From IMG/VR virus record IMGVR_UViG_3300042879_004016, positions 1-28,851 of that record: 28,851 bases of DNA. One strand, given 5' to 3'. How positions within the stretch are numbered: the first letter of the stretch is position 1; every line of letters starts with the position of its first letter. Made by a program: the position numbers and the translations under genes. The notes beneath the pieces are model-generated. The model saw only the letters and a program-made list of their open reading frames with translations, ran no database searches and was not told the DNA's origin. The DNA is from a virus. Positions 1-28,851 of this stretch are shown here, piece after piece.

Positions 1-3000
1 GTTTGCCCATTCCACGTGCTCTCGCACTCTCATACCCCATGAGCAAACCCATCAATTCGTTGTGCTGCGTGAACTTACCATAAAATCCCATAGAAGTTTT
101 AGCCCACCAGTGCAAAGGTCGTGTTGCAATATCCACAACGCTATCCTTTCCACCCTCCATCACCCTTCTGATCTTCTCCTGTTGTTCACCCAGCCGCTCA
201 AAATTCTCCGTCTGGTGACCGTAGTTAAACCTTCCCCGTCTTTCCGCCTCCGTGATCAACGCCACATGATCAGGGTTCTTAAAGTGCCTAGCGAAGTGTG
301 TCGAATCAAAGTCTCCTTTGTCGCCTTTGTTGAACTTAGCCCCAAACGCCTTTCTATAAACGTTGGCCAGTTCTTTAGAAAACTTCCCGATTTGCTTCAC
401 CCCGTTATAATAACCTCCACCCATTGCAACCCACTCAGGCAACAAAGTGTTAATCGGCTGCATAAACTCACTAAAGTGCGAAGCAATATTCCCGCCGATG
501 AACATCACCGCATTAGCTTTGTTCAACGCCGCACCAACAGCACTATCTGGCGTCATGAAGTTGCTCAGCCCCTCCTCCATCTGCTGCTTTACCTCAGGAT
601 GTTCAAGAAACTCAGGTGCGCGGAAGTGATGCTGCGTCGCCGCGTTCATCAGCCTCCGATGTGCAATCCTTTGAGTCATTTCAATATACTTCATGTGCTG
701 GTTAATCGGATTTTGCTTTTCATAACCCTCAGTGAACTTCCTCCCAGCACCAAACCCGTAGCTCTCAGAAGCTAGAGTTTTAGTCAACGCCTCGGAGAAA
801 TTCATACTATCGAGAATTCCCTTCTTAGACTCAGGGTCAATCGGCATGTTTTCCAGCATCGTCTTTAACGCCTCTTCTTTCTTCCTAATAACCTGCCACT
901 CCCGACCATTTTCGTTAATGCGCATTCTATTCTGATACTGTTTTTCCACCACGCTAGACCTAATTAACGTGTAACCAGCCTCTTTCATTTTAGACTCTGT
1001 CTTTCTCAAATCATCTTTACTTTCAAAAGGCAAATTAATAGCCCCTTTCGTCGGATGAGTAAACTCAGCGTTGATAGCCCCAAACCTCCTAAAAGTCAAG
1101 TGAAAAGGATTCGCGGCAAACGCCTCTTGGCGAGTCTTAACAAAATCCAAACGAGCCTGCACAAACTGCAACGCCGATTGAAATTCAGCGTCAGTCAACT
1201 TACTCCCGAGTCTGTAAGCCTCGGTCAAAACCCCGTCACGAATAGCTGTGTAAAGAAAATGCCCATCCCTCGTAGCCTCATGAAACTTTCCTTGGTAAGA
1301 CGCCATGCTAGACAACAGCGTAGAGACTTCAAACATCGCACCTTCATGCTCTGCCTGAATCAGCATCTTTGAGTTAGATTTCATCGAGGTAACTCGCTGA
1401 ATCATATACTTCTCGATATTGCTCTTTTCCAACGGCGACAGCCTGTTAAACGCCGCTCTACCCTCTGCAGTCAGCAACTTCAAATCAACCTTGATAACCC
1501 CTGTGGTAGGATCTTCTACAACAGGATTGACACCTTCCATTTGTGCCGTTTGCTCAATAACCCTCAACGACTCAGTCATTTTTGGACTTTGAGCAATTTT
1601 ACTCCACTCTTTGTCCATGACTTTAACCCCATTAACACCACCTTCTCCAAGAATCGGCATCATTGAGTTAGTAATCCCCGCCATAACTGCACTCGGCGCA
1701 TCACGCATAGCTGCAAAAAGCGGAGCCACAAAAGGATAACGCCGAGAAAAATCCTCCAACCTCTCAAACCACCGAGAAGCTCCCCGACCAACACTTTCCT
1801 TAACATCATTAAAGTTTCCCCTCGCCAAATCAACCCACTCTTTCCCACCCGGAGCATTCTCTACACTTGCATCCACAAACTCCATAGAACTTGTGCGAAT
1901 CTGTGCCAAATCGCCGCTTGACGCAATCAACATCCGATATCCTGTATCGTTGTTTTCTTCAGCCTTGCGGTTAGAGAGGCGAATTTTTTCGAGGCTTTTC
2001 AGAAGATTTGTGTTCAACTGGTGGGCTTCAAATTTTCTCCTGGCTCCGTTGAACATTTTTAGACCTTTTGTCAAGCGATGAAAGTGTCCGACAAGCCAGT
2101 CAAATGCGGAGCGGAGAGGAGTGGGCAAAAGAGTGCTGACCATTTCGTTGCCGTCTTTCAAAAGCGAGAGACGATGAAACGCTGAGGCGTTGGCGAAGAA
2201 TTCTTCAGGAGAAAGGTTTTTAGACACCTCTAACGAAGCAGAGTTTCTAAACTCCTCCGGCAGCAAGCCGTTGTAAAGAACATCCATCGCATCTGCAAGG
2301 GTCTGCGTGTCTGCGCTGCGAATCCAGACGTCAGCTTTGAGAAATGCTTCTTGTGCAACTTGACCGTATCTACCTTCACGCGCGTCAGCTTCAATAATAT
2401 GGCCGAGTTCGTGAGCTAGAACAAAGTGTTGACTTTTCACTCGGTCTTTCGCGGCGAGTTGCTTTAGAGCGGAAAGGTAGATTTCTCGCTTGTTTGTGAC
2501 TGCACCACCAAGTACTCCCGCATTGATGTCATCAAGGAGAGTTCCAAAGCCAATGTCGTCCACGCGAGAAAGCTCAATGATGCGAGCAAAGTCGCGGATG
2601 TAAGTTTCTCGATTTTCAAGTGGAATTCCGAGTTCGTCAAAGATGTGTTCAGCCAGAACTTCTGGGGTGACAATGCGGTCAATTTGAGATTCAGCACCAC
2701 GGAGTGCAGCACGGAGAGGAGTTGTTGCAGCGAACGTAATGCTAGTGCGTTGCAAATACAAATCGTTCAATAGCTTAGCACTTGCTCTAGCTTTTGCCAA
2801 ATCCTTCATCAGCTTTTTATACTGTGGATTCTTCACAGCCTCTTGATACTCAGGTGTACCTTTTTCAGAAGCCGGAGCTAGTTCAATTCTATCACGCTCC
2901 ATGCGGATAAGTGCATCAAGAAAAGGATAGTTATCAATTTTCTTTTCACTTGAACTACGGCCCATACGAGCTTCTTCGATTAACCGCAACTCGCCTTCTG

Positions 3001-6000
3001 TGAAGTCTTTTTTGCCTTCGACAAGTTCAGTAACTGCGTCCGAAAGATCACGAGTTTCTGGACGTGGACCATATGTGCTTGGTTGTTGTTGACCTTGGCG
3101 ATATGGCTCTGTCTTACCAGAAAGAATGTATTTCCGGTATGGAGTTTGATAATCAAAGTTAGAGATAATAATCCCACCGAGTTCAACAGGTTCTTTAGAC
3201 CTACCAGAGACTAGATCAGCCAGAGAAAGCATTGCTTCGCGCACCTGGATTGCAGTAACGCGGACTTTACTTAGCTGCACTTCATTGCGAGCATTCCAGA
3301 TTTTTAAGTCCAAATTGCGGTTAAAGTCAGCCAAGCCAGCAAGAGGATTGCTTTCACGAAGTGCGGAGAAAAGAGCCAGTTTAATCTCTGGAGTGGCTAA
3401 CTTCATGATTGCAGTAGCATCAGATTGAGCTACGCCCCACGCCGCCATCATTCCAGCAACCTGCTCACCTACAAGATTCAACTTCATTTCATTGGAAAAG
3501 AACTCAGTGTTGATTTTACCTTTCGCCTCTTCCAAGTTTTTCATACTCTTGTAGTTTAACAAAACAGAGTCTTTGATCTTTTGATCAAGTTTAAGCTTGC
3601 CAACATATTCTTCGACAAGAACTGGGTCAAAGGGCAGCAAAGCTTCAAAAAGATCCTTTCTCTGTCCTGCGGTAAGCTCTCCATTAAACGCCTCATTAAG
3701 CACTTCTGAGATCAAACCAATCGAGCCTTCAGAATCAACAAACTCAGAGTTCTTTAGATTGCCAAGAATTTCAATGCCCTTCTGAACATCTTTGTCGTTA
3801 ATAGCCTTATAAGATTCAGCTAAATTAACCCCAGTCTGTTTAGAATTTTCAGCCAGTGCTGTGCTTTCAATCCCATTCACCAATGACTCAACGCTAGTCA
3901 AGCCAGGGTTTTTGGCTTTAGAGACAATCCATTCGGAGAAAGTAACCTTCTCTCCATTAACCTTCACACCAGGCCAAGACTCTGGGTTAGCTTTCACTTC
4001 CGCAAAGCGAGCCTCTGTCACCCCAGGAGTTGCTTTAATGCGTTCGAGAAATGACTTTTTAAGCAGCGTGCGCTTGCGTGGGTTGGTGCTGATTGTGTAG
4101 ACCGACTCAGGATTTTCTTTCTTCAAAAGCTCGACCATATCAAGCAACGCAGGTGGATAGTCTGCACTGCTCCGCGTTATTGGAGGTTCTGGTAGAGCGT
4201 TAGTCTGCACTTCGGCATCTTTGTCGTAATAAGGGTCTTTGACTTCCATTGGAAGTATTTCGACCGATTCTGCGACAAAATGCACCTTATTTCCTGCTGG
4301 GTCTGTTAAATCAATAGGCGTAAATTCAGCTGTGGTGTGATTTTGAATAGTGGTGCTAAAAGCATTTTTCAGCCGAGTCACCCGCTCAAACGGAGTCAAC
4401 AAACGACCAGTGTCGATAGAAAAGCTCAACGTTGGGTCGATGCTGCTGAGTTCAAACTCCATTAGTTTTGACAAAAAACCAGACTCAACCTTGCCATCGT
4501 TAGCTTTTTTGCCCTGCACAGCTTTCATCTTCGATGCTGCTTCAATAGAAACTTTAACTTGAGCGTCAATTTGTGCTTTTAGCTCAGGTGAAACTGGGTT
4601 CCCGTTGGCATCAAAAATCTTCACCGACTGCATATCCACACGCCCAGTTGTTGCATCAAACCAATACTTACCACGGTGCATCCAGTTATAAAACTGGTTG
4701 ATCAATTCCTGCTGCAAAGACGCACTATCTTTCATTGTCAAACCTTGGCGTCGTTGCTCGTTTGTGATAAAGCTATCAACGCCGCTGACGCCTTTTTCAT
4801 CTGGCAGGAACAGCTTATTAAACTGCGTCGTGCCGTCAATAATAGCGTTGATCTGTGCGTTTTTCTCGAACACTGACATACTCTGGCTGATCTGATTTAG
4901 CAAGAAATCAGTGTTTGGGTCCATTGGATCAAGCCCTAATTCCACAGCAAGTTCTTCTTTAGAAACCTTAGCTCCAGTTTCCCGAGCAATGACGATTTTC
5001 TTAGCATACTCACCCTGTGTTGGGTTCATGTTCTTGAGAGTCTCTTTCTCAAAAATAGAGCCCATGTAAATTTCCTTAGTCACGTTTAGATCAAGCGGAA
5101 CATCACCCTCCTGACCTTTAACACGCGGCAACATTGCCTTTGAGAACCTATCGCTCCAAAAGCCCTTTCTCACATCTGCATCAGTCATCAAAAGAGTCTT
5201 GCCTTTTTCAGAAGACTTTAAACCTTCTGTGGACATTCTGATTTTGATAATCTGATAAAGCTCTTCGGAACTTAATCCAAACTCGGCCAACTTAGCTTCT
5301 TTTTCTTCTGCTGTGGCTTTCAAACCAGGCATCACTTCACTAAGGACTTCATTTCGCAACTGCTCCACAGCAGCACGGTCAATCCGCATTGTGACATGAG
5401 TTCTGAAAAGTGAACGGATTTTAATCATCACATACTCAGAAATCTTACTGATCAAAGCTTTTGTAGCATCAGCGGCAGCGTAGGCGTCTGCTTTAGGGTC
5501 AGCAGCAATTCCAGCCTTAGGTGTAAAAAGATCTCCGAGAATATTTGCAATTTCTCCACCCAAAGTAGCTAAAGTAGCTTCGTCTTTTGCTTGAGCAGCT
5601 TCGTTTTCAGCTACTGTTTTTGCTGCTTTCACAAGCTTTTCAGCATTTCCAGGCGTAAGCTGTCCCAACGGCTTCAAGTTCCCGTTATCCGCAGCATTAG
5701 ACAGCTTATTTAAAGAAGTCTCACCGGCTTCTTCGTGCGTAGCCCCAGCTTCCAAACTTTTCGCAACACCGTTAGCCAATTCAGGTTGACTAGGCGTTAC
5801 ACCGTGCTCCACTTTAATTGCACTAGCCGCAGCAACAGCTTGCTCGATCGGAGGTGCAGTATCTGGTACGACAGACTTAGAAACTGGATCCCACGTTCTG
5901 CCCTTTAAGTTTGCAGTTGCCTCAGCCATCTCCGCATGAAGCATAGCCTCACCCTCTGGAGTGGCAAAGTGCTTAAACTGTGGCAACTTGCTAATCTCAG

Positions 6001-7669
6001 ACACAAAATCTTTATCTGGACTTGCGGCAAGCGCAGCCAGTTTAAGCAGTTTTTTATCCTCCGGCGACAGACCTTTTCCAGTTTTAACAGCCTGCGTTGC
6101 AGCCTTAGCCGCTGCTTTAGCCTCTGGAGTCTTTGCCGCAGCCTCAGCTTTCTTAGCCACATCAGCAGCTTTCTTCTCCGGTTTCGGAGCTTTGACAGGT
6201 TTAGTTTCAACAAGCTTAGGCACATACCCAGGAAACTGCGTCATATCTGGTGGCAAATCACCTTTCTCCACTTGATGCCTTAACCAAAGATCACCAATCT
6301 GCTGTTCAGTCAGCTTTCCCTGAAACTGCTCTCTAAACAGTTTAGCATCCCGTGCAGCCAACGGCGTTTGAACAAACCTCCCCGCTGGGTCCAAACCAAG
6401 CTCTTCAACTGCAACGCCGAAAAGAGACAGCGTGTCCAAAGGAGTCACAGTGTCTTTGGCATTTTTCTCAATTCCCGCAAGCTTATCCTTATATTCTTTA
6501 ACAGCCGTTTGAACAAACTCATTTCCCAACTCAGGCTTTTCAATCAGCGCGTCGACAGTCAGATTCTCAGGCCAGAATCCTTCTTGTTTCAAACGATTAA
6601 CGGTGCCTTTGAAAGAATCATCCAGTGCCTCCTTCTCATTTTTAACAACCTCCTGAATCCCTCTCAACCGATTCTCGTTGGCAAAACTCTCCGCGATGTC
6701 CAAGCCATACTTCCTTTTAACCAGCATATCATTCAAAACCGAGGGATTCTCAGCTTTTTCGACCATATACTGCGTTTTGGCTTTTTGTGCTGCCGTTGGC
6801 TCACTTTCAATCTCGCTCTTCTCCAAACTCCTTTCGCCGGTAATCTTCGGCCCACCCACCGCATGAGGCTTCACCAGCCCAGCGACGTCAAATGGCAAGA
6901 ACCCTGCCTGATTCAGCACAGTCCCCAGCAAGAACTCAGGTGTAAACGCCTTTTCTCCCTGCTCAATCACATCCTTCGCAAAGAACGCTCCACCCGCCGC
7001 AGCCTGGCCGCCAACATAGTGACTCACTCGATCCTGCAGCGTTTTGGCAAACAACTGCTCGCTAGTCGTCTCAACCCCTTCTGCAACCGCCTTGCTCACC
7101 ACTGTCTCGCCGCCCTCGAACCCCAACGCCTTTGCGCCAGGAATTTTACTAACGCCTTTCATCGCCGCTTGACCACCTAAACCAAATAGCTTTGTAGCCG
7201 CCCAAGGTGTCGCACCGGCTAACGCAGCACTTCCAAGATCATCGGTCTTTTCATAAGCATCCGCCCCACTTAGTAAAGCAGTCGCTCCCATTCCTGCAGC
7301 AGTAACCCACCCAGGCCCAGGAATCATCATCGGTGCCATGTTCACAGCAGCACGCGGCAAGCCTCTGGTCATTTCTCCCACTTGCTCTGGATTCTCAACC
7401 CCCACCATCTCCCCCACCTTAGTGCCAAGCCACTCAGCACCTTGTGGCAAACCAGTCATGTTCAGCTCTTTATCAAGCCGAGCACTACCTCGTTTTGCCA
7501 GATTCCCAATCCAGGAGTCATCAGCATAGTCCATATACTCCGGCTTGCCAGTGATTTGACTCATCATCTGAGCAAATCCCTGCATAGTTGTGTCCGGCGC
7601 GACAGCTCCGGCTTTAAGTGCTTGCTGATACTGCTGATCAGCCTGTGCGAAAGAGACGATGGGGTTCAT
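1..7669 (-). CDS. Giant phage polyvalent/internal virion protein with zinc peptidase motif (partial, C-terminus outside window)
   Basis: One uninterrupted minus-strand frame runs from an ATG at 7669 past base 1, giving 2556 codons without a stop. I checked that the frame at the peptidase motif and at the left edge matches the start. Residues 105-140 are hydrophobic and rich in Gly/Ala (IPGPG at about 116-120). Residues about 486-525 form an Ala/Lys-rich linker. A zincin motif HELGH lies at residues 1753-1757 (bases 2399-2413). A likely third zinc ligand of gluzincin type follows at about residue 1822 in SPEEFFANA. The size, the position after the Gln/Pro-rich virion proteins and the embedded enzyme fit the giant polyvalent or ejection proteins of phages, which enter the cell with DNA. 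The peptidase could process virion or host proteins. The substrate is unknown. I saw no RNA polymerase or transglycosylase motif. Confidence 0.9.
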   Translation of the reverse strand, partial: MNPIVSFAQADQQYQQALKAGAVAPDTTMQGFAQMMSQITGKPEYMDYADDSWIGNLAKRGSARLDKELNMTGLPQGAEWLGTKVGEMVGVENPEQVGEMTRGLPRAAVNMAPMMIPGPGWVTAAGMGATALLSGADAYEKTDDLGSAALAGATPWAATKLFGLGGQAAMKGVSKIPGAKALGFEGGETVVSKAVAEGVETTSEQLFAKTLQDRVSHYVGGQAAAGGAFFAKDVIEQGEKAFTPEFLLGTVLNQAGFLPFDVAGLVKPHAVGGPKITGERSLEKSEIESEPTAAQKAKTQYMVEKAENPSVLNDMLVKRKYGLDIAESFANENRLRGIQEVVKNEKEALDDSFKGTVNRLKQEGFWPENLTVDALIEKPELGNEFVQTAVKEYKDKLAGIEKNAKDTVTPLDTLSLFGVAVEELGLDPAGRFVQTPLAARDAKLFREQFQGKLTEQQIGDLWLRHQVEKGDLPPDMTQFPGYVPKLVETKPVKAPKPEKKAADVAKKAEAAAKTPEAKAAAKAATQAVKTGKGLSPEDKKLLKLAALAASPDKDFVSEISKLPQFKHFATPEGEAMLHAEMAEATANLKGRTWDPVSKSVVPDTAPPIEQAVAAASAIKVEHGVTPSQPELANGVAKSLEAGATHEEAGETSLNKLSNAADNGNLKPLGQLTPGNAEKLVKAAKTVAENEAAQAKDEATLATLGGEIANILGDLFTPKAGIAADPKADAYAAADATKALISKISEYVMIKIRSLFRTHVTMRIDRAAVEQLRNEVLSEVMPGLKATAEEKEAKLAEFGLSSEELYQIIKIRMSTEGLKSSEKGKTLLMTDADVRKGFWSDRFSKAMLPRVKGQEGDVPLDLNVTKEIYMGSIFEKETLKNMNPTQGEYAKKIVIARETGAKVSKEELAVELGLDPMDPNTDFLLNQISQSMSVFEKNAQINAIIDGTTQFNKLFLPDEKGVSGVDSFITNEQRRQGLTMKDSASLQQELINQFYNWMHRGKYWFDATTGRVDMQSVKIFDANGNPVSPELKAQIDAQVKVSIEAASKMKAVQGKKANDGKVESGFLSKLMEFELSSIDPTLSFSIDTGRLLTPFERVTRLKNAFSTTIQNHTTAEFTPIDLTDPAGNKVHFVAESVEILPMEVKDPYYDKDAEVQTNALPEPPITRSSADYPPALLDMVELLKKENPESVYTISTNPRKRTLLKKSFLERIKATPGVTEARFAEVKANPESWPGVKVNGEKVTFSEWIVSKAKNPGLTSVESLVNGIESTALAENSKQTGVNLAESYKAINDKDVQKGIEILGNLKNSEFVDSEGSIGLISEVLNEAFNGELTAGQRKDLFEALLPFDPVLVEEYVGKLKLDQKIKDSVLLNYKSMKNLEEAKGKINTEFFSNEMKLNLVGEQVAGMMAAWGVAQSDATAIMKLATPEIKLALFSALRESNPLAGLADFNRNLDLKIWNARNEVQLSKVRVTAIQVREAMLSLADLVSGRSKEPVELGGIIISNFDYQTPYRKYILSGKTEPYRQGQQQPSTYGPRPETRDLSDAVTELVEGKKDFTEGELRLIEEARMGRSSSEKKIDNYPFLDALIRMERDRIELAPASEKGTPEYQEAVKNPQYKKLMKDLAKARASAKLLNDLYLQRTSITFAATTPLRAALRGAESQIDRIVTPEVLAEHIFDELGIPLENRETYIRDFARIIELSRVDDIGFGTLLDDINAGVLGGAVTNKREIYLSALKQLAAKDRVKSQHFVLAHELGHIIEADAREGRYGQVAQEAFLKADVWIRSADTQTLADAMDVLYNGLLPEEFRNSASLEVSKNLSPEEFFANASAFHRLSLLKDGNEMVSTLLPTPLRSAFDWLVGHFHRLTKGLKMFNGARRKFEAHQLNTNLLKSLEKIRLSNRKAEENNDTGYRMLIASSGDLAQIRTSSMEFVDASVENAPGGKEWVDLARGNFNDVKESVGRGASRWFERLEDFSRRYPFVAPLFAAMRDAPSAVMAGITNSMMPILGEGGVNGVKVMDKEWSKIAQSPKMTESLRVIEQTAQMEGVNPVVEDPTTGVIKVDLKLLTAEGRAAFNRLSPLEKSNIEKYMIQRVTSMKSNSKMLIQAEHEGAMFEVSTLLSSMASYQGKFHEATRDGHFLYTAIRDGVLTEAYRLGSKLTDAEFQSALQFVQARLDFVKTRQEAFAANPFHLTFRRFGAINAEFTHPTKGAINLPFESKDDLRKTESKMKEAGYTLIRSSVVEKQYQNRMRINENGREWQVIRKKEEALKTMLENMPIDPESKKGILDSMNFSEALTKTLASESYGFGAGRKFTEGYEKQNPINQHMKYIEMTQRIAHRRLMNAATQHHFRAPEFLEHPEVKQQMEEGLSNFMTPDSAVGAALNKANAVMFIGGNIASHFSEFMQPINTLLPEWVAMGGGYYNGVKQIGKFSKELANVYRKAFGAKFNKGDKGDFDSTHFARHFKNPDHVALITEAERRGRFNYGHQTENFERLGEQQEKIRRVMEGGKDSVVDIATRPLHWWAKTSMGFYGKFTQHNELMGLLMGYESARARGMGK

Positions 7670-26826: not shown

Positions 26827-26846
26827 TTCAGTCCCATTCAACGAAC

Positions 26847-26877
26847 GCCCCCCTCCTTTACGGGAGGGGGGCTTTTT
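26847..26877 (+). terminator. Strong intrinsic terminator after the 145-residue gene
   Basis: GCCCCCCTCC (26847-26856) pairs perfectly with GGAGGGGGGC (26863-26872) around the loop TTTACG and is followed directly by TTTTT. A 10-bp stem, nearly all G-C, followed by a T run is a textbook Rho-independent terminator. On the minus strand there is no T run, so it acts in the plus direction only. Confidence 0.93.
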
Positions 26878-26938
26878 CGTTCCAGCCCTTTCAATCGGGA
26901 GGGTTGAAACGAGAAAACAGCCCCGCCTTCCCCCTTTC

Positions 26939-27002
26939 CAAGCCCCTAGACGCGCTTGAATGGGGCTTGTGGGTTATTACAAGGGGGGCGGATTCAAGCC
27001 CC
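26939..27002. repeat. Three alternating copies of CAAGCCCC forming mutually exclusive hairpins
   Basis: CAAGCCCC occurs at 26939-26946 and 26995-27002, and its complement GGGGCTTG at 26962-26969 between them. The central copy can pair with the left copy (15-base loop) or the right copy (25-base loop), but not both. In addition CTTGAAT (26955-26961) can pair with ATTCAAG (26992-26998). The layout resembles an RNA switch, although no T run or start codon follows the alternatives directly. Confidence 0.6.
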
Positions 27003-27089
27003 GTAGAATCGATTTAGATAGCCAATCCGCACGGCCATTCTACCTTACTAACGTGCTTACTCTTATCCAGCCCCGTTCCCTCCAACAAC

Positions 27090-27103
27090 GGGGGGGGGGG
27101 GGG
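27090..27103 (+). repeat. Run of 14 G residues
   Basis: An uninterrupted G14 tract in non-coding DNA. It is the longest homopolymer seen in the window. It could vary in length by slippage or be an assembly or sequencing inaccuracy, since such runs are hard to read. Confidence 0.75.
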
Positions 27104-27110
27104 CGTCTCT

Positions 27111-27170
27111 AGTGTAGCTGGTAGTAGTAGTGTAGTAGATATATAGTAGTTAGAACCAGCCTCCTACACT
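27111..27170. repeat. TAG-triplet array enclosed in an inverted repeat
   Basis: AGTGTAG plus CTGGT (27111-27122) can pair with ACCAG (27155-27159) and CTACACT (27164-27170), a 12-bp stem with a four-base bulge (CCTC) on one side. The arms and the loop together hold nine TAG triplets within 43 bases (27115-27153). A further CTAGTAGTAAG follows downstream. It may be a protein-binding array, an origin-like iteron set or a structured RNA. Confidence 0.6.
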
Positions 27171-27302
27171 CCGCGCGAAACGGGCCGCTAGTAGTAAGCA
27201 AGTCAGTGAGCTAGCACGGCGATTTCAGCAGTGCAACGGGCCAAAACAAACATCAAAGCCCCCCGATAATGTTAGACAGACAGCGGCGAAAGGTTGATTC
27301 CT

Positions 27303-27332
27303 TTCTAAACTCTCAATCACGGGAGTTTAGAA
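27303..27332 (+). promoter_or_regulatory. Perfect hairpin in leader of the 85-residue gene
   Basis: TTCTAAACTC (27303-27312) pairs exactly with GAGTTTAGAA (27323-27332). A further T-G and C-G pair can extend it to 12 bp with loop AATCAC. It ends 23 bases before the ATG at 27356. As DNA it is a 10+10+10 operator-like palindrome. As RNA it is a stable leader stem. No T run follows, so it is not a terminator. Confidence 0.6.
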
Positions 27333-27355
27333 CACGAACTAACTAGAACAAAGCT

Positions 27356-27613
27356 ATGAGAATTGACCAATGGATTAAAAGTAAGAAAGCCCAAGACATG
27401 ACGGATTGGGAAATTGGTTGTAAGCTGCTTGACGTTATTGTCTCGCAAGTTTGCGGCATGGGAGTTGACGATCTTCCCGATACGCCCGAACTGGATAATT
27501 ACAGGCACCAGTGCGTTGATCTTGTCAATATGGAAGATGTAGAAGAAATGCTAGAGGAGTTAAAAGATATCAAAAGCGAGATCAGAGAAAATTTTGCTGA
27601 AATCTTCAATTAG
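27356..27613 (+). CDS. Hypothetical acidic small protein, 85 aa
   Basis: Begins MRIDQWIKSKKAQDMTDWEI and ends in an acidic helical stretch (MEDVEEMLEELKDIKSEIRE). Two Cys residues and a DDLPDTPELDNY turn lie in the middle. No family recognised. Many small acidic phage proteins of this type are early regulators, inhibitors or DNA mimics, but there is no direct evidence here. The leader is A/C-rich (ACTAACTAGAACAAAGCT) with a hairpin just upstream. The next gene begins 73 bases later behind another hairpin. Confidence 0.75.
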   Translation: MRIDQWIKSKKAQDMTDWEIGCKLLDVIVSQVCGMGVDDLPDTPELDNYRHQCVDLVNMEDVEEMLEELKDIKSEIRENFAEIFN

Positions 27614-27686: not shown

Positions 27687-27998
27687 ATGAAAATCGACAA
27701 ACTCGAAGATTGGATTGAAACTCTAGAAGGTGCAAAGTTGCCTCCTGCGGTGCAACAACTGGCAGATGATACAGGCACAAATCTGTATCCTCAAACCGAT
27801 CAACTTTACGCCGACGCGTTAAATGACGCTTGGGTGCGTATTGATTACGGCAAGCTATCTGACGGCACAGTTGGTTGGTATGCTAAAGCAGAACGCAGAA
27901 GTGAAGCTGGCCTGCGTTCACTAGAGACTTTCGCACGTCTCAACATGAAACTCCGCTTTGGAGTGAACAGCACTCCTCCAATGGCCAAGTATAGCTAA
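27687..27998 (+). CDS. Hypothetical small protein, 103 aa
   Basis: Begins MKIDKLEDWIETLEGAKLPP, with a middle segment DQLYADALNDAWVRIDYGKL and a basic end (LNMKLRFGVNSTPPMAKYS). Its start resembles that of the 85-residue protein (M-[KR]-I-D-x-[LW]), a weak hint of a shared N-terminal signal or chance. No family recognised. The leader is AAAACAACGAACAAATAAAA, without Shine-Dalgarno. The stop overlaps the next start (TAATG), so the two genes are translationally coupled. Confidence 0.75.
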   Translation: MKIDKLEDWIETLEGAKLPPAVQQLADDTGTNLYPQTDQLYADALNDAWVRIDYGKLSDGTVGWYAKAERRSEAGLRSLETFARLNMKLRFGVNSTPPMAKYS

Positions 27999-28183
27999 TG
28001 AAAACAGAACTCCTCGGCACAAGTTGGACACCTAAAAAAGGTGGCCTTCCTTGGAAAGTAACTGACGTCTTCACCTCTCACTACAACTGCGATGCAGTTA
28101 AAATTGAGAAATACCAAGGCGGTAGGAACTCTCCTGCAATTATCACATTCAAAAAACTTAAACAGAACTTCAATCAAAACTAA
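27998..28183 (+). CDS. Hypothetical small basic protein, 61 aa
   Basis: Begins MKTELLGTSWTPKKGGLPWK and continues as a beta-rich chain (VTDVFTSHYNCDAVKIEKYQ, ending FKKLKQNFNQN). It starts in a TAATG overlap with the 103-residue gene and ends one base before the next ATG, so it belongs to the same operon as the GHKL-like gene. The sequence is short and could be a single small beta domain. Not recognised. Confidence 0.7.
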   Translation: MKTELLGTSWTPKKGGLPWKVTDVFTSHYNCDAVKIEKYQGGRNSPAIITFKKLKQNFNQN

Positions 28184-28184
28184 A

Positions 28185-28851
28185 ATGAACATGTATCTCA
28201 ACATCTCAAATCCCGGCGAGGCCCCAACCTCCGCCTTCCGCATCTCTGGTGACTCCACAGCACGTGGAGACATTAGCAAAATCGGCAACTTCGGCTCTGG
28301 TGCGAAGCACGCCATTCTCGTCCTCCTCCGCCACAAAATCCCCTTCGTCATCTATTCCGGCTTGAAAGAAATCCCAGTCACTGTCGTCAACGAACTCCAC
28401 GGCACAAGAACAATCCCTGTCGTTTACATCGACAACCTCCCCACTTCGATGTCAATCGAATTCGGTGCCACTGACTGGACAGAACCCTCAATGGCGCTGC
28501 GGGAACTAATCTGCAACGCGCTAGACCAAGACGCGTTGATTGGAGACGCAGTTCGCTTCACTCCGAATGAAATCGTCCCCACAACAGGGATAACGCAAGT
28601 GCAGATCGAGGCCAACATCGGCGGGCCTGTCTGGGCTGCAGCGAGTGAGTTAGACAAGATGTTTCTCCACTACAAATCGCTGGAAAACACCTCGATTCTC
28701 CCGAAGGAAAAGACTTCGCCCTTAAAGTTCTACAGAAAAGGCGTCTTCGTCTCAGAGAGCCCCATCGAGACTCTCTTCGACTACAACGACACTGCCGGGG
28801 CTGTCAAGATTGACGAGTCAAGACAGTTCTCCGGATTCAATCTCTCCGCGA
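28185..28851 (+). CDS. Putative GHKL (Bergerat-fold) ATPase with permuted motif order, partial (222+ aa)
   Basis: Open from ATG 28185 to the right edge, so the C-terminus is missing. Residues 33-45 (IGNFGSGAKHAIL) resemble the G2/lid motif of Hsp90- and MutL-like ATPases (IGxFGxGxxSA). Residues 106-114 (RELICNALD) match the N-box, with E107 as the general base and N111 as the magnesium ligand. A weak G1-like segment (IEANIGGPVW ... ASELDKMFL) lies at 141-161, without the usual Asp. The normal order is N-box, G1, G2; here it is G2, N-box, G1, as expected from a circular permutation. The role in the phage is unknown. The gene follows three small genes in one operon. It might belong to a widespread unannotated phage family. 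Confidence 0.7.
   Translation, partial: MNMYLNISNPGEAPTSAFRISGDSTARGDISKIGNFGSGAKHAILVLLRHKIPFVIYSGLKEIPVTVVNELHGTRTIPVVYIDNLPTSMSIEFGATDWTEPSMALRELICNALDQDALIGDAVRFTPNEIVPTTGITQVQIEANIGGPVWAAASELDKMFLHYKSLENTSILPKEKTSPLKFYRKGVFVSESPIETLFDYNDTAGAVKIDESRQFSGFNLSA

Follow-up and report, generated by a model that had tools for sequence, protein, structure and literature searches.

The locus examined here raises the question of how the signature motifs of a GHKL ATPase come to stand in an unusual order in a phage protein, and of what such a protein might do. The stretch analyzed, here called the window, is a virus record of 28,851 bases; an open reading frame (ORF) that starts at position 28185 on its plus strand remains open through the end of the contig. 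A preliminary description of the product pointed to a G2 motif, IGNFGSGAKHAI, at residues 33-44 followed by an N-box, RELICNALD, at residues 106-114, and both were found at these positions, with G2 first. GHKL proteins (Hsp90, MutL, gyrase, histidine kinases, MORC and RIIA) have their motifs in the order N-box, G1, G2.

The gene, its motifs and its family

The features of the locus, all on the plus strand, are as follows.

27356-27613, 27687-27998 and 27998-28183, plus strand: three small ORFs that precede the one at 28185
28185-28850, plus strand: permuted GHKL-like protein, N-terminal 222 of about 400-430 residues, 3' end missing (from the ORF, the match to PHROG 8203 and dN/dS)
28200-28220, plus strand: counterpart of G1, NISNPGE, residues 6-12; N-x-G replaces D-x-G-x-G, and N9 stands in the column of the G1 Asp (from family alignments)
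28248-28262, plus strand: lid motif G-x-S-x-(K), here GDSTA, residues 22-26, with Lys replaced by Ala (from alignment)
28281-28316, plus strand: G2 motif IGNFGSGAKHAI, residues 33-44, its three Gly positions invariant in 58 of 58 homologues
28431-28478, plus strand: strand and invariant Trp before the N-box, residues 83-98, corresponding to the strand at the N-terminus of normal-order proteins
28500-28526, plus strand: N-box RELICNALD, residues 106-114, behind G2 (from conservation and a match to a profile of canonical proteins only)
28587-28610, plus strand: Thr strand GITQVQIE with T137, not moved, proposed to correspond to the "GT" strand of GHKL proteins (Thr in 58 of 58 homologues; collinear alignment)
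28731-28826, plus strand: YRKGVFV ... DESRQ, conserved after the ATPase core, with an E-x-R invariant in 58 of 58 homologues (profile match at residues 163-214)

The contig stops about midway through the protein, whose remaining half is judged from relatives. The nearest of these, on contig L002, is 90% identical to the window protein over 210 residues (dN 0.13, dS 1.2), which marks the ORF as a real gene under purifying selection. Contig L002 is itself a chimera or recombinant; its positions 1-1362 hold minus-strand genes with no match in the window, similarity to the window begins at position 1362, and its copy of the protein is without the G1 strand. That the gene is truncated by the end of the window, and that L002 ceases to resemble the window immediately before the match, might suggest that the rearranged order is an artefact of assembly or of a chimeric contig. 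The same order recurs, however, in the cultured phages M6, YuA, FP1, AH02 and Ssp-JY42 and is common to some 75 non-redundant homologues from phages and prophages, and we give an artefact almost no weight.

No PHROG match was found for the three small upstream ORFs. Immediately to their left, a region of about 530 bases (26827-27355) holds only short overlapping ORFs and lies between two plus-strand ORFs, the left-hand one being the first plus-strand ORF after the minus-strand genes; this region may be the site of an early promoter region. At the other end of the window, the minus strand carries a very large open frame (2-7669), 2556 residues or longer, that is cut by the contig end.

The window protein belongs to PHROG 8203, a family that includes ORF071 of Pseudomonas phage M6 (392 residues) and its relatives and in which the motifs run G1-G2-N, as they do here. 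Residues 4-214 match positions 3-202 of the 394 of this profile (E 8.5e-20); PHROG 6077 is matched as well, and both are listed as of unknown function. Within PHROG 8203 the window protein is divergent, with about 25-36% identity to most other members and without the lid Lys, which 56 of 58 homologues keep, and is otherwise of the same kind. A tblastn search with the window protein matched 87 phage records (E up to 1), and 68 records, mostly Pseudomonas phages of the M6/YuA group, cover at least 80% of M6 ORF071 when that is the query; a few of the latter are annotated HATPase, ATP-binding protein or "hydrolase, metallopeptidase." In a single record, that of Escherichia phage ERS-1 (PP337211.1, 105551-106561), the M6 ORF071 search gave matches at eight separate places. 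Full-length permuted members mostly have 385-460 residues. In the numbering of L014, a full-length relative 36% identical to the window protein, the residues invariant in 58 homologues are G26 of the lid GxSxK, the three G2 glycines and A47 and, further along, G98, W101, R108, E109, N113, D116, T135, E208 and R210.

A block in a new position

Are these true GHKL motifs? RELICNALD fits the N-box pattern E-x3-N-x2-D/A, and its R, E, N and D are invariant in 120 of 120 proteins (75 permuted and 45 of normal order). GNFGSG fits the G2 pattern G-x-x-G-x-G with invariant glycines, the last part reading GSG or GTG in the permuted family and GEG in normal-order proteins. At G1, by contrast, the window protein has N-x-G where GHKL proteins have D-x-G-x-G, and the order is G1-G2-N rather than N, G1, G2. 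Profiles built only from normal-order proteins matched the window protein, in chain order, as G at residues 22-59 (28.3 bits), N at 104-116 (11.7 bits) and R at 163-214 (15.4 bits), each above the best of 2000 shuffles (6.0, 4.3 and 7.7 bits, respectively). Conversely, the N block of the permuted family reached 10 bits on 16 of 27 normal-order proteins and on none of 2700 shuffles. The preliminary description had called the N-box and G2 resemblances convincing, and these scores bear it out.

Database models gave fainter signals. A Pfam scan of the window protein and the permuted family returned no GHKL model, and the window protein alone had no Pfam match of any kind. A sacsin ATP-binding model of NCBIfam was matched below threshold by 8 of 9 members (best E 0.003); against the PDB, sequence profiles gave only sub-significant matches to MORC2 in the G1-G2 part (E 0.15), which were gone with a larger alignment; and PADLOC returned weak matches to TmtA and DrmB, the former in 7 of 58 permuted proteins (best E 4.7e-4). 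The absence of any Pfam match to the window protein alone is what one would expect if the likeness arose by chance or convergence in a fold unrelated to GHKL; against this stand the profile-profile and fold evidence and the fact that shuffles never reach the observed scores, so that this reading is scarcely credible.

Normal-order relatives allowed the rearrangement to be located. Gp016 of Erwinia phage Hena1 (PHROG 6077) is a homologue whose N-box comes first, followed by G1 and G2, and the profile of the permuted family matched it in three out-of-order pieces, namely, the N-box block at 2-37, G1-G2 from 47 onward and the region after the Thr strand from 142 onward; two relatives repeated the pattern. 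A second normal-order set (A4), mostly of 435-454 residues and with an invariant C-terminal HExxH, matches HATPase_c_3 (best member E 1.3e-5) and HATPase_c in Pfam and, weakly, SprT-like and Zincin_1. Both groups have N, G1-G2 and post-Thr-strand blocks homologous to those of the permuted family, from which they differ in the order N-G1-G2 and, where a zincin-like domain is present, in having HExxH instead of EExxH. An hhalign comparison of 58 permuted with 10 normal-order proteins gave 335 collinear columns (E 2.4e-24), in which the N-box block stands out as an insertion. This block of about 32 residues, aligned alone, placed columns 86-117 of the permuted alignment (A2) on columns 8-39 of A4 (E 1.2e-6), which are the N-terminus of the normal-order family.

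The position of G1 bears on the nature of the event. A weak G1 had been proposed to follow the N-box, which would give the order G2-N-G1; this finds no support, and the alignments give a different order. NISNPGE (residues 6-12) aligned with the G1 region of normal-order proteins, N9 lying opposite the G1 Asp, so that the chain order is G1-G2-N. The Asp, which is essential in Hsp90, was rightly said not to be obvious: its position is Asn in 51 of 58 permuted homologues and Asn, Ser or Thr in all scorable permuted members. In the block alignment only one normal-order protein (L139, DDGPGM) has it, and since most normal-order relatives are also without it, the loss is not specific to the permuted branch.

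Meanwhile, the T137 strand and all that follows it are collinear between the two families, and T137 is presumably the equivalent of the Thr of the Hsp90 "GT" strand, an equation that draws on family knowledge and not on structural superposition. Because the Thr strand and everything after it have stayed in place, only a strand-helix-strand block around the N-box has moved. The preliminary idea of a rearranged GHKL (Bergerat) protein therefore stands on homology to normal-order GHKL proteins and on predicted structure, whereas its circular permutation falls, the Thr strand being unmoved and the block relocated. If the Bergerat domain as a whole had been circularly permuted in the strict sense (G2-N-G1), G2 would indeed precede the N-box; such a permutation would not account for a G1 counterpart ahead of G2 or for the collinearity of the Thr strand and downstream region, and it is very improbable. 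We rejected it on the unmoved Thr strand. The window protein is a permuted derivative, not a regular member of the GHKL group, and it descends from normal-order GHKL proteins.

A tree of 75 permuted and 45 normal-order proteins, built from blocks that were aligned separately so that motif order cannot influence it, separates the two orders by one branch with support of 1.0. This unrooted tree fits one rearrangement event; we take the change to have run from normal to permuted because GHKL proteins in general have the normal order.

Predicted fold and the C-terminal domain

The preliminary description had proposed comparing a predicted structure with GHKL folds by Foldseek, and we did so with L014. 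The AlphaFold2 model (pLDDT 93.6, pTM 0.82) has elements E8-14, H43-53, strands from 58 to 86, E89-94, H103-116, E121-125 and E134-140; thus, the N-box helix (103-116) comes after the G2 helix (43-53). Against the PDB it matched full-length Hsp90, TRAP1 and HtpG (E 5e-6, prob 0.99), with TM-scores of about 0.2 that alone do not prove the topology, and against viral models it matched RIIA of phage KVP40 (E 8e-5). A Bergerat alpha/beta sandwich is predicted on the strength of the Hsp90 match. The model of a normal-order protein, L135, built from only 10 sequences (pLDDT 86), contains the elements of L014 with strand-helix-strand first (E2-9, H18-36, E40-45, E48-54, H79-93, then strands) and matched topoisomerase VI-B as well as Hsp90, the latter also in its isolated N-terminal domains (prob 1.00). 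The low TM-scores of L014 beside the clear match of L135 would fit a rearranged chain seen by a sequential aligner. The permuted family resembles Hsp90 and topoisomerase VI-B in its predicted Bergerat fold and catalytic motifs but differs from them in motif order, in the missing G1 Asp and in its zincin-like C-terminal domain. It likewise resembles RIIA of T4-type phages, a phage GHKL ATPase with a variable C-terminus, which is longer and has a different C-terminal domain.

Full-length permuted relatives, like A4 proteins, end in the zincin-like domain, which has EExxH in permuted and HExxH in normal-order proteins with no exception in the sample. Among classified permuted ORFs, 83 have EExxH, none has HExxH, 12 are degraded and 10 are without the domain; among normal-order ORFs the numbers are 27 with HExxH, none with EExxH and 87 without the domain, redundant sequences being included in both sets of counts. 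The domain of the window protein, in the region beyond the contig end, is assigned from relatives, one of them 90% identical. In relatives it is predicted to share the fold of the minigluzincins selecase and abylysin (prob 1.0 for the C-terminal domain of L014) and of Spartan/SprT zincins (Spartan, prob 0.72), from which the permuted family differs in that the first metal-binding His of HExxH, the signature of zincin metallopeptidases, is Glu. In L135, L122, L130 and other A4 members a GHKL ATPase is fused to an intact HExxH zincin-like domain, a combination that looks like an ATP-coupled phage metallopeptidase. The open-access literature searched contained no description of a permuted GHKL protein and nothing relevant on a phage GHKL-metallopeptidase or on phage minigluzincins.

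Possible mode of action

We propose that the product of the ORF is the ATPase half of an early phage protein whose ancestor would have been a normal-order phage GHKL protein, the strand, N-box helix and strand having passed from the N-terminus into a beta-hairpin just before the invariant-Thr strand. A single Bergerat-type pocket would still form and bind nucleotide, because the protein retains the Glu, Asn and Asp of the N-box, the Thr and the glycines of G2, and the conservation of these nucleotide-contacting residues argues for ligand binding. Base recognition is perhaps altered, the G1 Asp being Asn, and the altered G1 together with EExxH points to a changed preference for ligand and to a C-terminal domain that binds rather than cleaves. 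As is the case for other GHKL proteins, the nucleotide would make a dimer or clamp open and close, and this movement would act on the zincin-like domain, for which protein binding is likelier than protein cleavage because the permuted branch has EExxH. The expected outcome would be that a host or phage protein is remodeled or trapped early in infection. We put at about 0.7 the probability that the anatomy, the fold and a nucleotide-driven action of some kind are all correct; the specific role of an ATP-operated protein-remodeling switch in early infection is tentative, possible rather than likely.

Nucleotide binding may also be weak or lost, the G1 Asp being absent and the lid Lys of the window protein being Ala. 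Carried to its end, this would make the protein a degenerate, nucleotide-free derivative, GHKL by descent and now a binding scaffold without ATPase activity. The replacement of the G1 Asp in all scorable permuted members speaks for such a derivative, as do the lid Ala and the accompanying change of HExxH to EExxH; yet the Glu, Asn and Asp of the N-box, the Thr and the three glycines of G2 show no substitution in any of the 58 homologues, highly diverged as these are. Such constancy is difficult to account for if the protein neither binds a ligand nor acts as a catalyst, and we consider loss of nucleotide unlikely.

If the nucleotide-driven reading holds, the clamp would have to differ from familiar ones. 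The N-terminal strand of known GHKL clamps forms a free arm; because that strand is internal in the permuted chain, the usual exchange of arms should be impossible. A more speculative proposal, less likely than not, is a naturally permuted Bergerat ATPase without the free arm that proteins of the Hsp90, MutL and GyrB types exchange when ATP binds; its dimer or clamp would have to work in another way, in concert with a zincin-like domain that changed from HExxH to EExxH in the same lineage. As for the setting, several phages have the homologue in an early or DNA-metabolism region, near genes for DNA polymerase, primase and dCMP deaminase, and a comparison of gene neighborhoods revealed no neighbor conserved beyond close relatives. 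Such a location is compatible with a role in host takeover or counter-defense, as suggested for RIIA orthologues, which have been called poorly understood counter-defense GHKL proteins (PMC7824862).

Finally, we note that the anatomy is solid and constitutes a real and unusual finding. Other phages have normal-order relatives built on the same full-length plan, so that the states before and after the rearrangement can be compared, and the family offers a natural test of which connections of the Bergerat fold are dispensable. The finding also assigns a fold to PHROG 8203, a widespread phage family that includes Pseudomonas phages M6 and YuA, which are amenable to laboratory study.
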